From the NCBI GenBank assembly GCA_945878695.1, contig CAMDXI010000014.1, forward strand, positions 1 to 32,109: a stretch of 32,109 nt of DNA, read 5' to 3'. Both the position numbers and the translations under genes were made by a program. This DNA comes from Methylotenera oryzisoli (GTDB taxonomy: Bacteria; Pseudomonadota; Gammaproteobacteria; Burkholderiales; Methylophilaceae). Positions 3,045-16,329 of this stretch are shown one piece after another. A model generated the notes under the pieces. That model was given only the letters and a program-made list of their open reading frames with translations. It was not told where the DNA came from and ran no database searches. Numbering within the stretch: the first letter of the stretch is position 1; each line of letters opens with the position of its first letter.

Positions 3045-3073
3045 CTTGAGATTTTGCCGGCCACCCCCATTGA
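3045..3073 (+). promoter_or_regulatory. Sigma-32 heat-shock promoter of grpE
   Basis: CTTGAGA (3045-3051), a 13-nt spacer, then CCCCATTGA (3065-3073). The sigma-32 consensus is CTTGAAA, 13-14 nt, CCCCATnT. The box lies about 33 nt before the grpE start. Confidence 0.75.
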
Positions 3074-3106: not shown

Positions 3107-3625
3107 ATGACTGAAAACGTAAACGACAACCCTACAACGCAAGCCGAAGAGGGCGCCCAAGACAACCCCGTTGCAGCCAGCCCCGAAGAGCGCATTGCCG
3201 AATTGGAAGCGCAGTTGGCAGAGGCCCAAGCGGCCGTGCTCTACACCAAAGCCGAAGGCGAAAACATCCGCCGCCGCGCCATGGACGACATAGAAAAAGC
3301 GCGCAAATTTGCCTTAGAAAAATTCTCCAATGAGTTGTTAGCGGTTAAAGACAGTTTGGACGCGGCTTTGCTAATTGAAGCCGCCGAAGTGCAAAGCTAC
3401 AAAGATGGCGTGGACCTCACCGCCAAACAACTGGCCTCGGTATTCGATAAATTCAACATCACCGAGATTAACCCAGTGGGTGAGAAATTCGACCCCAACA
3501 AACACCAAGCCATCAGCATGTTGGAAAACAGCGGTGAACCAAATACCGTCACCAGCGTATTGCAAAAAGGCTACACCCTCAATGACCGCGTGTTACGCCC
3601 GGCCTTGGTGATGGTGGCTAAATAA
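3107..3625 (+). CDS. grpE: Nucleotide exchange factor GrpE
   Basis: Homodimeric cochaperone that releases ADP from DnaK to restart its folding cycle, and can act as a thermosensor. The 172 aa are somewhat shorter than E. coli GrpE (197). An acidic, low-complexity N-terminus (about 1-30) is followed by a long coiled-coil helix (about 30-70, including [20 protein letters not shown]). The C-terminal beta-wing domain carries the family pattern [14 protein letters not shown] and ends in [23 protein letters not shown] ribosome site lies shortly before the ATG. The gene lies upstream of dnaK with a 150-bp gap that has its own promoter. No hrcA adjoins it on the 5' side, unlike in many bacteria. Confidence 0.95.
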
Positions 3626-3635
3626 AAAATAAACA

Positions 3636-3662
3636 CTTGAAATAATCGCAACAGACCTCATT
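3636..3662 (+). promoter_or_regulatory. Second sigma-32 heat-shock promoter, in front of dnaK
   Basis: A perfect CTTGAAA (3636-3642) is followed by 13 nt and CCTCATT (3656-3662), one mismatch from CCCCATT. The spacer length equals that of the grpE promoter. It lies 10 nt past the grpE stop and about 113 nt before dnaK, so dnaK can be induced independently of grpE readthrough. Confidence 0.7.
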
Positions 3663-3775: not shown

Positions 3776-5698
3776 ATGGCAAAAATCATTGGTATAGACT
3801 TAGGCACCACCAACTCATGCGTGGCTGTGATGGAAGGCGGCAAACCGCGCGTGATTGAAAACTCCGAAGGCACACGCACCACGCCTTCTATTATTGCTTA
3901 CCAAGAAGACGGTGAAATCCTAGCCGGCGCACCGGCTAAACGCCAAGCGGTGACCAACCCTAAAAACACCTTGTACGCGGTTAAACGTTTAATCGGCCGT
4001 CGTTTTGATGAAAAAGAAGTGCAAAAAGACATAGGCTTAATGCCCTACAGCATTGCCAAAGCCGACAACGGCGACGCATGGGTAGAAGTGCGCGGCGTGA
4101 AAATGGCGCCACCACAAATTTCTGCTGAAGTGTTACGCAAAATGAAAAAAACCGCCGAAGATTACCTAGGCGAAGAAGTAACCGAAGCGGTGATTACCGT
4201 GCCGGCTTACTTTAACGACAGCCAACGTCAAGCCACCAAAGACGCAGGCCGCATTGCCGGTTTGGATGTAAAACGCATCATCAACGAACCGACTGCAGCG
4301 GCTTTGGCATTTGGTTTAGACAAACAAGAAGGCGATCGCAAAATTGCCGTTTACGACTTGGGCGGCGGTACCTTTGACGTGTCCATTATTGAAATTTCCA
4401 GCATCGATGGCGAACACCAATTTGAAGTGTTGTCGACCAACGGTGACACCTTCTTAGGTGGTGAAGACTTCGACAACCGTTTAATTGACTTCTTGGCCGA
4501 CGAGTTCAAGAAAGAAAATAACGGCATGGATTTGCGCAACGACTTATTGGCTAAACAACGCTTAAAAGAAGCGGCGGAAAAAGCTAAAATTGAATTGTCT
4601 GGCGCCACCCAAACCGAAGTGAATTTACCTTACATCACGGCCGATGCCACTGGCCCGAAACACTTGGTGGTAAAAATCACCAGAGCCAAACTGGAATCCT
4701 TGGTGGAAGACTTGATCGAGCGCACCATGGCCCCATGCCGCACGGCGATTAAAGACGCCGGCGTGTCCATAGACGACATCACCGATGTGATCTTGGTCGG
4801 CGGTCAAAGCCGCATGCCTAAGGTGCAAGAAAAAGTAAAAGAAATCTTTGGTAAAGAACCGCGTAAAGACGTCAACCCAGATGAAGCCGTGGCCGTGGGC
4901 GCTGCAATTCAAGGTGGCGTATTACAAGGCGACGTGAAAGACGTGTTGTTATTAGACGTGACGCCATTGTCATTGGGTATCGAAACCTTGGGCGGCGTGA
5001 TGACGAAAGTGATCAAGAAAAATACCACGATTCCTACCAAGGCATCGCAAACTTTCTCTACTGCTGACGACAACCAAAATGCCGTGACCATACAAGTGTT
5101 GCAAGGTGAGCGTGAAAAAGCCGCGGCCAACAAATCATTGGGCCAATTTAATTTAAGCGACATTCCACCCGCACCACGTGGCATCCCGCAAATTGAAGTG
5201 ACCTTTGACATCGACGCTAACGGCATTTTGCACGTGAGCGCCAAGGACAAAGCCACCGGTAAAGAAAATAAAATCACCATCAAAGCCAACAGCGGTCTTA
5301 GCGAAGCCGAGATTCAGCAAATGGAAGAAGATGCCGTTAAATACGCAGACGAAGATAAGAAATACCGCGAGTTGGTCGATGCACGCAATGCCGCTGATGG
5401 CATGGTGCACTCCGTGAAAAAATCCTTAAGTGAGCACGGTGATAAATTGGACGCGGCAGAAAAAGAAGCGATAGAAGCGGCCATTAAAGACGTGGAAGAA
5501 GTCTTGCAATCCGACGACAAAGACGCGATTGAAGCCAAAACCACGGCCTTAACGGAAGCCTCACAAAAATTAGGCGAGAAGGTCTACGCTGAGCAACAAG
5601 CCCAAGCCAACACCGAATCCGCACAACAAGCAGAAGGCGAAAAAACCGTCGATGGCGACGTGGTGGACGCGGAGTTTGAGGAAGTGAAAAAAGACTAA
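3776..5698 (+). CDS. dnaK: Chaperone protein DnaK (Hsp70)
   Basis: ATP-driven Hsp70 chaperone that binds exposed hydrophobic peptides; with DnaJ it also controls sigma-32 stability in the families studied. The 640 aa are full length (E. coli 638). ATPase-domain signatures are visible in order: [13 protein letters not shown] (6-18), [17 protein letters not shown] (around 140), [10 protein letters not shown], the phosphate loop [12 protein letters not shown] (around 195) and LVGGQSRMP (around 340). The linker [19 protein letters not shown] leads to the substrate domain and helical lid, and the acidic tail ends in EEVKKD, as usual. AAGGAAA provides a good ribosome site. It has its own sigma-32-like promoter upstream and a strong terminator downstream. 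Confidence 0.98.
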
Positions 5699-12221: not shown

Positions 12222-12365
12222 ACGTGGGCCTATCTTTAACTGCCTGTTCATTTTTACTAGCGGATTTCTGACCGCCGCTCACCTGCCTAAGTTCACGACA
12301 ACTTGGACCAGTGATTTTTTTAGGCCAGGCGCCATGGTGAAGATGAAAGCCGTGCTAAAACAAGT

Positions 12366-12371
12366 TAAAAT
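12366..12371 (+). promoter_or_regulatory. -10 box (TAAAAT) directly before ftsY start
   Basis: TAAAAT ends 7 nt before the ATG at 12379 and there is no ribosome site between, so the transcript would be leaderless or nearly so. Confidence 0.45.
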
Positions 12372-12378
12372 AGTGCCC

Positions 12379-13398
12379 ATGTTTGATTTTTTCAAAAAGA
12401 ACAAAAGCCCAGATCCTGCGCAGCCCGCACCCGACACCCCTGCGCCTCATGCGAATACTGCGGCTGAGCCTGAATTAGCCACGCAGCCCAGCACCTCGTG
12501 GGCCGAACGCCTTAAAACCAGCCTAAGCAAAACCCGCAAACAACTTGGCAACCAATTGGCCGGGCTATTTGGCGGCGGAAAAATTGACGCCGAGGTCTTT
12601 GAGGAATTAGAGACCATCTTACTGACATCAGACGTGGGCGTGAACGCCACCAAGAATTTACTGAACGACATCAAAAACCGCGTTAAAGCGCAAAATTTAG
12701 ACGACACCGTGCAACTCAAAGCTGCTCTTAAAGCGGCCCTGTCGGATTTGCTCACGCCCTTGCAACAACCCTTAGTCACCACCGAACACCAACCCTTCGT
12801 TATCATGCTGGCCGGTGTCAACGGTGCCGGCAAAACCACCAGCATAGGCAAGCTGGCCCATGCATTTCAAGCACAAGGCAAATCGGTGCTGATCGCCGCT
12901 GGCGACACCTTTAGAGCCGCCGCACGCGAGCAATTGCAAGTGTGGGGCGAGCGCAACAACGTGCACGTGGTAGCGCAATCCAGCGGCGATGCCGCAGCGG
13001 TGATGTTTGATGCCATCAATTCGGCCATCGCCAAAAAAATCGACATCGTCTTAGCCGACACGGCCGGTCGCTTGCCCACGCAAATGCATTTAATGGACGA
13101 AATTGCCAAAGTAAAACGCGTCATGGCCAAAAGCTTACCCGGTGCACCACACGAAGTATTGCTAGTATTGGATGCCAACACCGGCCAAAACGCCGTGTCG
13201 CAAGTCAAAGCCTTTGACGATGCCTTGGGTGTCACCGGCTTGGTATTAAGCAAATTGGACGGCACCGCCAAGGGCGGCGTCATTGCAGCGATTGCCGAAG
13301 CGCGACCCATCCCCATACGCTTTATTGGCATAGGCGAAGCGATAGACGATTTGCGTCCCTTTGTAGCCAGCGAATTCATTGATGCCATGCTCGATTAA
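12379..13398 (+). CDS. ftsY: Signal recognition particle receptor FtsY
   Basis: SRP receptor GTPase that docks ribosome-SRP complexes at the inner membrane. 340 aa from the ATG at 12379. A short acidic/proline-rich A region (about 5-45), the helical N domain (about 50-135) and the G domain follow in order. G1 is GVNGAGKTT (146-154), with DTFRAAAREQL, DTAGRLP and SKLDGTAKGG as later GTPase motifs. An in-frame ATG at 12334 would add 15 residues, but MFDFFKKNK is the usual start of this family and a -10-like box sits between the two. It heads the conserved ftsY-ftsE-ftsX-rpoH series. Confidence 0.95.
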   Translation: MFDFFKKNKSPDPAQPAPDTPAPHANTAAEPELATQPSTSWAERLKTSLSKTRKQLGNQLAGLFGGGKIDAEVFEELETILLTSDVGVNATKNLLNDIKNRVKAQNLDDTVQLKAALKAALSDLLTPLQQPLVTTEHQPFVIMLAGVNGAGKTTSIGKLAHAFQAQGKSVLIAAGDTFRAAAREQLQVWGERNNVHVVAQSSGDAAAVMFDAINSAIAKKIDIVLADTAGRLPTQMHLMDEIAKVKRVMAKSLPGAPHEVLLVLDANTGQNAVSQVKAFDDALGVTGLVLSKLDGTAKGGVIAAIAEARPIPIRFIGIGEAIDDLRPFVASEFIDAMLD

Positions 13399-13424: not shown

Positions 13425-14105
13425 ATGATTAAATTTGACCACGTCACCAAACGTTACCCGGGCAGCAACGAAGCCTTAAGCCAGGTGAGCTTTGACATAG
13501 AAGCCGGCGAGTTGGTGTTTGTAACCGGTCACTCGGGCGCCGGCAAAAGTACCTTACTCAAGCTGATAGCCGCCATCGAGCGCCCCACCAGCGGCACGGT
13601 ATTGATCGCCAATCAAAACATCAGCCAACTAAAAGCTGCCGCTATTCCCTATATGCGCCGCCGCTTTGGCTTGATCTTTCAAGACCACAAATTACTCTAC
13701 GATCGCAATTGCTTTGAGAACGTCATCTTGCCTTTGCACATCAATGGCATCACTGGCTTGGACGCCGCCAAACGCGTGCGTGCCGCCTTGGATAAAGTCG
13801 GTTTATTGCACAAAGAAAAAGCCATGCCCATCACCCTATCCGGCGGTGAGCAACAACGCTTGGCGATTGCGCGCGCCGTGGTCAGTCGCCCATCCATTTT
13901 GATTGCGGACGAACCTACCGGCAATTTGGACTCCAGTTACGCAGCCGACATCATGGGCATCTTCCAAGATTTCAATCAAGTGGGCGTCACGGTGATCGTT
14001 GCCACCCACGATGCACGCGGCATGTCGGCGACACAAAATCGCGTGCTGCACTTAGACCACGGTCGATTGACCGTATCCAATTCAGCTGAAAGCGTGAACG
14101 CATAA
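13425..14105 (+). CDS. ftsE: Cell division ATP-binding protein FtsE
   Basis: ABC ATPase that works with FtsX at the division septum to regulate peptidoglycan hydrolases through periplasmic partners. 226 aa. Walker A GHSGAGKST (35-43), ABC signature LSGGEQQRLAIARA (from 138), Walker B ILIADEPTGNLD (around 160-170) and an H-loop in VATHDA are all intact. The YMRRRFGLIFQDHKLL stretch is characteristic of FtsE. Its stop codon overlaps the ftsX ATG by one base, so the pair is translationally coupled. Confidence 0.96.
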   Translation: MIKFDHVTKRYPGSNEALSQVSFDIEAGELVFVTGHSGAGKSTLLKLIAAIERPTSGTVLIANQNISQLKAAAIPYMRRRFGLIFQDHKLLYDRNCFENVILPLHINGITGLDAAKRVRAALDKVGLLHKEKAMPITLSGGEQQRLAIARAVVSRPSILIADEPTGNLDSSYAADIMGIFQDFNQVGVTVIVATHDARGMSATQNRVLHLDHGRLTVSNSAESVNA

Positions 14106-15019
14106 TGAACTGGCTCAATCAACACCTGCAAGCGATTAAATTGGTGCTGTCGCGCATGGACAGCAACAAGCTATCGACCTTTATGATCAGCTTGGTGATT
14201 GCCGTGGCCATGGCCATCCCCGGGGTGTTTTACTTAGGCGTGGAGCATTTATCCAAACTAAGCAACCACATGCAAAATGAAACCGAGATCAGTCTGTTTG
14301 TGAAGCTAGACGAACCGTCCAGCACCTTAACGGCAATCGACGCTACCTTAAAAAGCAACCCCGCCATCCAGACTTACACCTTGGTCACCAAGGCGGACGC
14401 CTGGGAAGACTTAAAAGCCAAAGCCGCATCAAACAAAATCAACAGCGAAGTGCAAAACCTAGAACAAAATCCGCTACCGGACGCCTTTTTCATTCAAGCC
14501 AAATCGGCTGATGCGGCGGCACTCGCCACCTTAAGGGATGAGCTGCAAGCCCTGCCTGGCGTGGAGCGAGCTTTATTGAATGCCGAGTGGGCCAAACGCT
14601 TGTCCAGCATATTGGCCTTGGGCACAAAAATTATCGCGTTCATTGCCGCCTTGTTGGCTTTGGCTTTATTGGTCATCATAGGCAACACCGTGCGCATGCA
14701 AATCCTCACGCAAAAAGACGAAATCGTGGTCAGCAAATTGATAGGAGCCACCACCAACTTTATCCGCACGCCGTTTCTTTATGCCGGCATGGTCTACGGC
14801 TTATTCGGCGGCCTACTATCCATGGCCATGCTGATGTTTATCGTGCAACTGTATAACCAATCGGTCGTGCAACTGTCTCAACTGTACAGCAACGACTTCA
14901 GCTTGGCTTGGTTTAACCCACCGCTTTACCTAGGCATCATCTTGCTGTCCATCTTCATCGGTTGGCTAGGATCCTTCCTGTCTGTCAGCCGCGCCATTGC
15001 CGCCATCAAAATAGACTAG
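14105..15019 (+). CDS. ftsX: Cell division protein FtsX
   Basis: Membrane partner of FtsE. 304 aa with four predicted membrane segments: about 26-46, 170-193, 223-245 and 274-297. A periplasmic domain lies between the first two, as in the family. The cytoplasmic stretch MQILTQKDEIVVSKLIGATTN after the second segment is the typical FtsX/permease coupling region. Overlap with ftsE and the following rpoH agree with the conserved locus. Confidence 0.95.
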   Translation: MNWLNQHLQAIKLVLSRMDSNKLSTFMISLVIAVAMAIPGVFYLGVEHLSKLSNHMQNETEISLFVKLDEPSSTLTAIDATLKSNPAIQTYTLVTKADAWEDLKAKAASNKINSEVQNLEQNPLPDAFFIQAKSADAAALATLRDELQALPGVERALLNAEWAKRLSSILALGTKIIAFIAALLALALLVIIGNTVRMQILTQKDEIVVSKLIGATTNFIRTPFLYAGMVYGLFGGLLSMAMLMFIVQLYNQSVVQLSQLYSNDFSLAWFNPPLYLGIILLSIFIGWLGSFLSVSRAIAAIKID

Positions 15020-15053
15020 TTTCCCGCCACGCTTGCAGTGAACTATTTAGCCT

Positions 15054-15080
15054 CTAGCACTCTCTTATACAGAGTGCTAA
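15054..15080 (+). promoter_or_regulatory. CIRCE operator (HrcA binding site) upstream of rpoH
   Basis: The left arm CTAGCACTC (15054-15062), a nine-base spacer and the right arm GAGTGCTAA (15072-15080) match the CIRCE consensus TTAGCACTC-N9-GAGTGCTAA at 17 of 18 arm positions, with exact spacing. A -10-like TATACA (15066-15071) lies inside the spacer, so a bound repressor would block it. The site is 29 nt before the rpoH ATG. Known CIRCE sites control groESL and dnaK operons through HrcA. Confidence 0.85.
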
Positions 15081-15109
15081 AATAGCATTAATCTGAGGAC
15101 TAATTTTAA

Positions 15110-15967
15110 ATGACCACTGCCTTATTACCCGTGTTAACTGCCAGTGATAGCCTAGAGCACTACTCTAGGGCCATCAAGGCTTACCCTATTCTGTCCGCAG
15201 AAGAGGAATACGCGCTGGCCGTCAAATTTAGAAAAGAAAACGACTTAGAAGCCGCGCGTCAATTAATTGTCTCGCACCTACGCTTGGTCGCCAGCATCGC
15301 CCGTGGCTACAACGGTTACGGCTTGCCGCAAGCAGACTTAATTCAAGAAGGCAACATCGGCTTGATGAAGGCGGTAAAACGCTTTGACCCAGAACGCGGT
15401 GTGCGCTTGGTGTCCTTTGCCATGCATTGGATTAAAGCGGAGATGCACGAATACATCGTGCGCAATTGGCGCTTGGTCAAAATTGCCACCACCAAAGCGC
15501 AACGCAAACTATTCTTTAACCTACGCAGCATGAAGCCTGGCCATAACAGCCTGCAAAGCAGCGAAGTGGAGCACATCGCCCAGACCTTAAACGTCAAAGC
15601 GGAAGAAGTGCGGGAAATGGAAGCGCGCCTTAACGGCCACGAAATCGCCTTAGAATCCAGCGCTGAGGACGACGAAGACGGCCACTACAGCCCCATCGCC
15701 TACTTACAAGACGAGCGCTTAGAGCCACTGGCGGCCATGCAAGCTAAACAAACGGAAGCCTTTGAAAGCAACGGTTTGAGCCATGCCTTGCAACACTTGG
15801 ATGAGCGCAGCCGTCGCGTGGTGGAATCACGCTGGTTGCAAGACGACGGCGGCAAAACCTTGCACGAATTGGCCGCTGAATTTGGTGTGTCCGCAGAACG
15901 CATACGCCAAATCGAACAAAAAGCCATGCAGAAAATTAAAAGCACCATGTTGGCTTACCAAGCCTAA
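15110..15967 (+). CDS. rpoH: RNA polymerase heat-shock sigma factor RpoH (sigma-32)
   Basis: Directs RNA polymerase to heat-shock promoters. 285 aa (E. coli 284). Region 2 contains LIVSHLRLVASIARGYNGYGLPQADLIQEG-type core and -10 recognition helices, the RpoH-specific box QRKLFFNLR is at 131-139, and the region 4.2 helix-turn-helix ends in SAERIRQIEQKAMQKIK. A GAGGA ribosome site stands 10 nt before the ATG. It follows ftsX by 90 nt, which hold a CIRCE operator, and is followed by a strong terminator. Likely targets in the window are the sigma-32-type promoters of grpE and dnaK. Confidence 0.97.
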   Translation: MTTALLPVLTASDSLEHYSRAIKAYPILSAEEEYALAVKFRKENDLEAARQLIVSHLRLVASIARGYNGYGLPQADLIQEGNIGLMKAVKRFDPERGVRLVSFAMHWIKAEMHEYIVRNWRLVKIATTKAQRKLFFNLRSMKPGHNSLQSSEVEHIAQTLNVKAEEVREMEARLNGHEIALESSAEDDEDGHYSPIAYLQDERLEPLAAMQAKQTEAFESNGLSHALQHLDERSRRVVESRWLQDDGGKTLHELAAEFGVSAERIRQIEQKAMQKIKSTMLAYQA

Positions 15968-15982
15968 GTTGGCTGACTTGAG

Positions 15983-16010
15983 AAAAAAGGCTGCCTGCGC
16001 AGCCTTTTTT
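15983..16010 (+). terminator. Intrinsic terminator of rpoH
   Basis: GGCTGC pairs with GCAGCC around a four-base loop, flanked by A6 and T6 runs that lengthen the stem. It lies 16 nt after the rpoH stop and can work in both directions. Confidence 0.9.
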
Positions 16011-16329
16011 ATTGGCGATGCGCCGCATTGTAGGGCTAAAGCCCGACCTACAAACTAAGAATCGGAATGTCATGTAGGTCGGCCTTAAGGCCGACATGGC
16101 CATTTATAAGCCAGAAAAAGACCTTTTTTTATTGGCGAAATGGGTTTTGTAGGAGCGATCTTTAGATCGCGAAAAGCAATTTAGCCACCTAGCCTTCGCG
16201 ATCTAAAGATCGCTCCTACAAAAAGATCGCTCCTAGATAAGGACCACGCCGGAACGAATCAGTCAGCCTATTGATGTCGCTGTCACGCCGTTCTGTTATC
16301 ATCTTATTTTACAAACAATTGACCCGCGC
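16011..16329. repeat. REP/BIME-like palindrome cluster between rpoH and the DUF971 gene
   Basis: No gene is visible in the gap. Three palindromic units occur. The first (about 16029-16053) has a GGGC-TAAA-GCCC core with TTGTA/TACAA ends. The second (about 16071-16099) has GGTCGGCC-type arms around TTAA. The third is a perfect 29-bp inverted repeat, arms 16145-16173 and 16195-16223 with a 21-nt loop, each arm itself containing GCGATCT/AGATCGC. A partial extra copy of its end follows (16224-16236). These resemble the REP sequences mobilised by RAYT transposases in Gammaproteobacteria and Betaproteobacteria. A promoter for the next gene must lie in or after it; I cannot place one. Confidence 0.8.

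Follow-up and report, generated by a model that had tools for sequence, protein, structure and literature searches.

Accounts of heat-shock control in Gram-negative bacteria mostly follow E. coli, with sigma-32 at the top, and CIRCE and HrcA form a classical system. In the Methylotenera oryzisoli DNA a CIRCE-like palindrome precedes the gene for sigma-32, which raises the question of whether one of these heat-shock systems controls the other. A sequence-only reading of the window (the whole stretch of DNA that was analysed, 32109 bases) had proposed that rpoH is a target of HrcA, and it had named as checks a genome-wide CIRCE scan, the presence of hrcA and a comparison of the ftsX–rpoH gap across relatives. 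Here the proposal is supported at the level of sequence: hrcA is present, the arms of the site are conserved, and the site is usually missing in genomes without hrcA. The palindrome is very likely a working CIRCE operator, fused to a predicted promoter, through which HrcA would repress rpoH transcription. The features discussed below are collected in Table 1.

Table 1. Position of the operator, the promoter elements and the genes in the window
Feature	Coordinates	Strand	Remarks
ftsY	12334-13398		Precedes ftsE; named by reading the ORF
ftsE	13425-14105		Precedes ftsX; named by reading the ORF
ftsX	14105..15019	+	TIGR00439, 263.6 bits (cut-off 255)
Putative sigma-E (RpoE) -35 box, GAACTA	15040..15045	+	GAAC enrichment upstream of CIRCE; rpoE in genome
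CIRCE operator (predicted HrcA site)	15054..15080	.	Left arm CTAGCACTC, 15054-15062; 9-nt spacer TCTTATACA, 15063-15071; right arm GAGTGCTAA, 15072-15080; kept at rpoH in relatives
Putative -35 hexamer, CTAGCA	15054..15059	+	Inside left arm, 18 bp before -10; weak, 3/6
Putative sigma-E -10, TCTTA	15063..15067	+	In CIRCE spacer, 17 nt after the -35 box
Predicted -10 element, TAAAAT	15078..15083	+	Last 3 bases of right arm plus AAT
Shine-Dalgarno of rpoH, GAGGA	15095..15099	+	Read from sequence
rpoH, sigma-32, 285 aa	15110..15967	+	TIGR02392 and NF005143 matches
Sigma-32 promoter match, CTTGAGA-N13-CCCCAT	3045..3070	+	Ahead of grpE (3107-3625, named by reading the ORF)
Sigma-32 promoter match, CTTGAAA-N13-CCTCAT	3636..3661	+	Ahead of dnaK (3776-5698, named by reading the ORF)

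The CIRCE site and its genomic setting

A search of both strands of the window returned a single CIRCE match at three or fewer mismatches, in the gap between the stop of ftsX and the start of rpoH. Its sequence, CTAGCACTC-N9-GAGTGCTAA, agrees with the consensus TTAGCACTC-N9-GAGTGCTAA (as given in the accessible part of PMC545781) at 17 of the 18 arm bases, with a single arm base off. No CIRCE match occurred in 100 dinucleotide shuffles of the window. The near-perfect operator with a nine-base spacer described by the sequence-only reading was thus borne out, and the CIRCE site ahead of rpoH is confirmed as genuine, beyond chance. That reading was also right about the gene behind the site. Curated models identify the open reading frame as RpoH, with 404.2 bits for TIGR02392 (cut-off 323.1), a score above the cut-off of this equivalog model, and 419.4 bits for NF005143 (cut-off 241). 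The gene order at the locus is ftsYEX-rpoH. Among the named matches listed, which may omit the nearest records of the window, the closest rpoH belongs to a Methylotenera MAG at 80% identity, which makes a Methylophilaceae-like methylotroph the probable host.

The genome encodes a full-length HrcA (TIGR00331, 342.2 bits with a cut-off of 197.2; PF01628, 231.8 bits with a cut-off of 22.2), and rpoE is present as well. The CIRCE scan of the whole draft genome gave two sites at three or fewer mismatches, one ahead of rpoH and the other ahead of groES, and no match to the CIRCE pattern read backwards; the draft of 1.39 Mb is 86% complete, and this count may therefore have missed another site. Sigma-32 promoter matches with one mismatch each were found ahead of grpE, dnaK and groES, and none with up to three mismatches in all was found ahead of rpoH, hrcA or dnaJ. 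The groES upstream region (L003, 1473-1527) holds the CIRCE site together with the sigma-32 promoter match CTTGAAA-N13-CCCAAT, and AAT follows the groES CIRCE as it does at rpoH.

Several further elements were seen downstream of rpoH. The sequence AAAAAAGGCTGC-CTGC-GCAGCCTTTTTT at 15983-16010 reads by eye as an intrinsic terminator and is absent from the list of the terminator scan. A perfect 29-nt inverted repeat with 21 nt between its arms lies at 16145-16223, with no further copy within the window, and a second inverted repeat of the TGTAGG... type, 83% complementary, lies at 16029-16096. Both repeats look like REP-type palindromes.

Conservation upstream of rpoH

For each rpoH gene of the relatives, about 350 bases upstream were taken and the best CIRCE match was scored. 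The family sample held 92 genomes out of 113 with rpoH over the cut-off. The sample from other families of the order held 85 genes in 84 genomes, drawn from 90 genomes after exclusion of three without an rpoH match, three of the window's own family (counted there or, for G000, as the window's own) and a below-cut-off second hit in G196. The sample from the rest of the class held 91 genes in 90 genomes, drawn from 104 genomes after exclusion of 11 without an rpoH match (8 of them with hrcA), of the window's own genome, of partial genes in G239 and G265 and of a second hit in G295. Outside the class, 35 of 45 genomes from other classes of the phylum were used, with the best-scoring RpoH copy of each. 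The upstream stretches of G199 (L118), G238 (L160) and the named locus L409 were short.

CIRCE with no more than three mismatches lies upstream of rpoH in all 92 family members, in 72 of 85 genes from the other families of the order and in 64 of 91 from the rest of the class; at two or fewer mismatches the counts are 90/92, 71/85 and 60/91. The site is perfect at 30 genes in the order outside the family and at 37 in the rest of the class. The reversed motif never came closer than five mismatches in the same regions. As a control, composition-matched palindromes with shuffled arms were tried, 20 for every second upstream region (134 of 268); one of the 2680 tests came within four mismatches, and the real motif was found within three in 228 of 268 regions. 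In the comparison of the ftsX–rpoH gap that the sequence-only reading had suggested, the middle of the spacer varies freely, whereas the arms are conserved in the family, in the order and in much of the class. A hand count gave exactly two CIRCE-like sites at three or fewer mismatches for 82 of 120 genomes in the family.

Similar results were obtained with named loci. Among the best 80 of 581 confirmed rpoH loci, 76 carry CIRCE within two mismatches, including those of Bordetella, Paraburkholderia, Herbaspirillum, Pandoraea, Comamonas and Nitrosomonas europaea; the other four belong to Gallionella, Nitrosospira, Snodgrassella and a Lautropia whose upstream sequence is short. The CIRCE–rpoH arrangement is common in the class sampled and not peculiar to the Methylotenera oryzisoli genome. 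In other classes of the phylum, CIRCE within three mismatches precedes 2 of the 35 rpoH genes, although most of the genomes concerned (27 of 35) have hrcA; control of rpoH is therefore not a necessary function of HrcA. The CIRCE-like sites seen upstream of rpoH outside the class are L347 (three mismatches), L350 (one) and L346 (four), with L347 and L350 both in family f162.

Co-occurrence with hrcA

The rpoH CIRCE is usually absent where hrcA is absent. Among the 84 genomes of the order, 70 have both, 4 have hrcA only, 1 has CIRCE only and 9 have neither (Fisher p 1.8e-8); the corresponding numbers for the 90 genomes of the class are 58, 4, 6 and 22 (p 7.4e-12), and both p values assume independent genomes, an assumption that holds only in part. 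Stated for the genomes lacking hrcA, the rpoH site is missing in 9 of 10 in the order and 22 of 28 in the class. Nine further class genomes that are listed as 100% complete and have no rpoH CIRCE all lack hrcA.

Contrasts were also found within single families. In family f4 of the order, G122 has both the site and the gene and G171 has neither. In family f34, also of the order, G196 has both and G152 has neither, although G152 retains a decayed remnant with five mismatches. Outside the class, family f162 includes G317 and G341 with both and G313 and G352 with neither (loci L348 and L349, which have no site). At the G152 locus (L127; hrcA not found) the remnant stands beside an intact GGAACTT box. 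Decaying rpoH CIRCE sites with three to four mismatches were also seen in genomes that keep hrcA (L053, L095, L135 and L137).

Other genomes do not follow this pattern. Three of the four order genomes with hrcA only have a site with four mismatches, and the fourth, G202, has just an hrcA fragment with a stop codon. Counted against control by HrcA are the single order genome with CIRCE but no detected hrcA (84% complete), the six class genomes of the same kind (three of them 62-81% complete and three 97-99%) and the four class genomes with hrcA but without an rpoH CIRCE.

Predicted promoter elements at the operator

The TAA at the end of the right arm and the conserved AAT that follows it make TAAAAT, and the operator therefore overlaps a predicted -10 element. 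The last T of this hexamer is found at 92/92 sites of the family and 133/136 sites of the order and class, and the pattern TA...T is kept in 227 of 231 rpoH sites. For comparison, 30 groES loci were taken as best hits from the order sample (2 from the window's family), of which 26 have CIRCE within four mismatches. While the rpoH operator spans the -35 region to the -10, these 26 groES sites usually have a CTATTA-like element directly before the left arm, and a T after the right arm occurs in only two, one of them the groES site of this genome. The AAT extension is thus largely specific to rpoH CIRCE sites; its occurrence after the groES CIRCE of the same genome counts against the fusion of operator and promoter at rpoH.

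The left arm may cover a -35 element. Outside the family, 115 of 136 sites begin the left arm with TTAGCA or TTGGCA, 18 bp before the -10, which resembles a -35. In the window's family the arm begins with C in 86 of 92 sites and with CTAGCA, a poor -35, in 81. A generic sigma-70 promoter scan called no promoter at the window CIRCE, where the -35 matches at three of six positions. At 46 of the 136 sites outside the family the third base of the left arm is G and not A, and a T is retained in 134 of 136 at its partner in the palindrome, the first base of the -10.

A second candidate promoter overlaps the operator from upstream. The sigma-E promoter consensus is GGAACTT, 16-17 nt and TCnnA. The tetramer GAAC occurs between -22 and -5 from CIRCE at 151 of 228 sites, compared to 10/227, 14/227 and 15/228 in three control windows. 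The composite GAAC[TC]N-(15-17)-TCNNA is present at CIRCE in 57/92 sites of the family, 42/72 of the order and 37/64 of the class, and GAACTA-N17-TCTTA of the window is degenerate relative to the consensus. In upstream regions whose best CIRCE has five or more mismatches, the composite was found in 5 of 37, once far upstream, with not all 37 genomes lacking hrcA. A sigma-E-like promoter is mostly not visible where CIRCE is gone.

Alternative explanations

HrcA may bind the site with minor effect only, the level of sigma-32 depending chiefly on translation, stability and the sigma-E promoter. We regard this as rather unlikely, and it overlaps the preferred reading, which it weakens and does not replace. 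Translation and stability are the main controls on sigma-32 in E. coli, and the rpoE gene and the sigma-E-like box beside CIRCE in this genome would fit such a division of labor. Moreover, rpoH may also be read from ftsYEX, as the terminator scan, which missed a likely terminator after rpoH, lists none on the + strand between 14900 and 16100. However, the retention of CIRCE within two mismatches across the family, the order and the class, together with its joint absence with hrcA, suggests that repression is under selection. The operator also overlaps both predicted promoters, so that HrcA would block both.

It is very improbable that the palindrome works mainly at the level of the rpoH mRNA, forming a hairpin or RNA thermometer, and not as a DNA operator. 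The RNA from 15050 to 15149 does form the CIRCE stem when folded (-19.9 kcal/mol, z -2.12, equalled by 7 of 200 shuffles). At the third pair the usual substitution is to G-T (53 of 231 sites), which in RNA would leave a G-U pair, and the outer pair shows a double change from T-A to C-G at 12 of 231 sites. Yet 94 of 231 sites have a non-pairing C-A as the outer pair, and for six of the nine arm pairs the bases are identical in 226 or more of the 231 sites, which indicates that the bases are kept and not the pairing. Read-through transcripts from ftsYEX would contain the palindrome, but the conserved -10 places the predicted start downstream of it, and the transcript from that start would lack it. 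The leader from 15090 to 15189 shows no unusual fold (z -0.65), and the usual absence of CIRCE where hrcA is missing also argues against a mere mRNA hairpin. An mRNA hairpin was rejected as the main function because of the C-A outer pairs, the conservation of individual bases and the predicted start.

The sequence-only reading had seen a -10 in the spacer hexamer TATACA (15066-15071), and this part of it was not upheld. The hexamer is present in the window, but it recurs within one mismatch at the same place in 1 of 231 sites, and a TATAAT-like hexamer starts anywhere in the spacer in only 18 of 231. A role for TATACA as the -10 of rpoH is highly improbable and was rejected in favor of the conserved TAAAAT. 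Finally, that the site is a chance palindrome or a relic has almost no probability: its one arm base off consensus is the first-base C that is the rule in the family and hence not decay, all 92 family members carry the site, and chance was rejected by the dinucleotide and shuffled-arm controls.

Comparison with known systems

The rpoH site resembles HrcA/CIRCE control of groESL and dnaK operons in having the same palindrome, an encoded HrcA and a groES site in the same genome, but here the predicted target is a sigma factor gene. E. coli rpoH has several promoters, one of them sigma-E dependent, and stands in the order ftsYEX-rpoH; the locus described here is alike in this order and has a putative sigma-E-type promoter upstream. 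Among the control genomes, E. coli gives no match to PF01628, the HrcA profile, and without HrcA it has no HrcA layer over rpoH.

A survey of these regulons in beta- and gamma-proteobacteria by Permina and Gelfand in 2003 may already list rpoH sites. A CIRCE site upstream of rpoH was predicted in Geobacter sulfurreducens in 2004, at position -51 (Table 8 of PMC545781), with others at groESL and hrcA-grpE-dnaK-dnaJ, according to the accessible part of that paper. The G. sulfurreducens case, as presented in that part, concerns one genome of a delta-proteobacterium, without promoter anatomy, whereas the arrangement described here lies in the Beta/Gammaproteobacterial class, extends over many families, is absent together with hrcA, and has a predicted fused -10 and a sigma-E-like box. 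No CIRCE at a Beta/Gammaproteobacterial rpoH appears in the accessible parts of PMC545781, PMC10490939, PMC3989490, PMC11764788, PMC10696704, PMC3135505 and PMC3224663, and a term search of PMC5343134, on proteobacterial regulons, gave no mention of HrcA, rpoH or CIRCE. In the literature searched, which left subscription papers and regulon databases mostly outside, no report of CIRCE at rpoH in Beta/Gammaproteobacteria was found, and we do not claim that it is unpublished. What makes the rpoH site of added interest is how widely it occurs, that it is missing where hrcA is missing, and that the operator appears fused to the promoter.

A proposed model for HrcA control of rpoH

Taken together, one heat-shock system (HrcA) probably controls the other (sigma-32) at this locus. 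With its left arm over the -35 region and its right arm supplying the first half of the -10, the operator appears fused to the promoter, and the sigma-E-type promoter (GAACT..N16-17..TCnnA), which may also serve rpoH, would overlap it on the upstream side, so that HrcA, once bound to CIRCE, would directly block RNA polymerase. Heat or misfolded protein would inactivate HrcA, rpoH transcription, predicted to start near 15090, would rise, and sigma-32 would rise with it. Given the sigma-32 promoter matches, the chaperones would follow: sigma-32 would drive grpE, dnaK and groESL, with groESL also freed from its own CIRCE and so under both controls. Such a circuit would be a coherent feed-forward loop, in which HrcA represses rpoH and groESL and RpoH activates groESL. 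In Bacillus subtilis, HrcA is re-activated by GroEL, and the same may hold here. In Xylella under nitrogen starvation, the messages of hrcA and rpoH both rose (accessible part of PMC3224663); this observation may count against repression of rpoH by HrcA.

The breadth of the arrangement and the contrasts within families, rather than a species tree, suggest an order of events. We consider it reasonably likely that Beta/Gammaproteobacteria ancestrally had HrcA repression through an operator in an rpoH promoter containing sigma-70 and sigma-E elements, and that control of the E. coli type, without HrcA, arose from it when hrcA and the rpoH CIRCE were repeatedly lost together. If HrcA stands above sigma-32 in most Beta/Gammaproteobacteria that keep HrcA, the two heat-shock systems would be connected in series and not side by side, and E. 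coli would be the exception. Loss of HrcA would then raise sigma-32 and its whole regulon, and not groESL alone.
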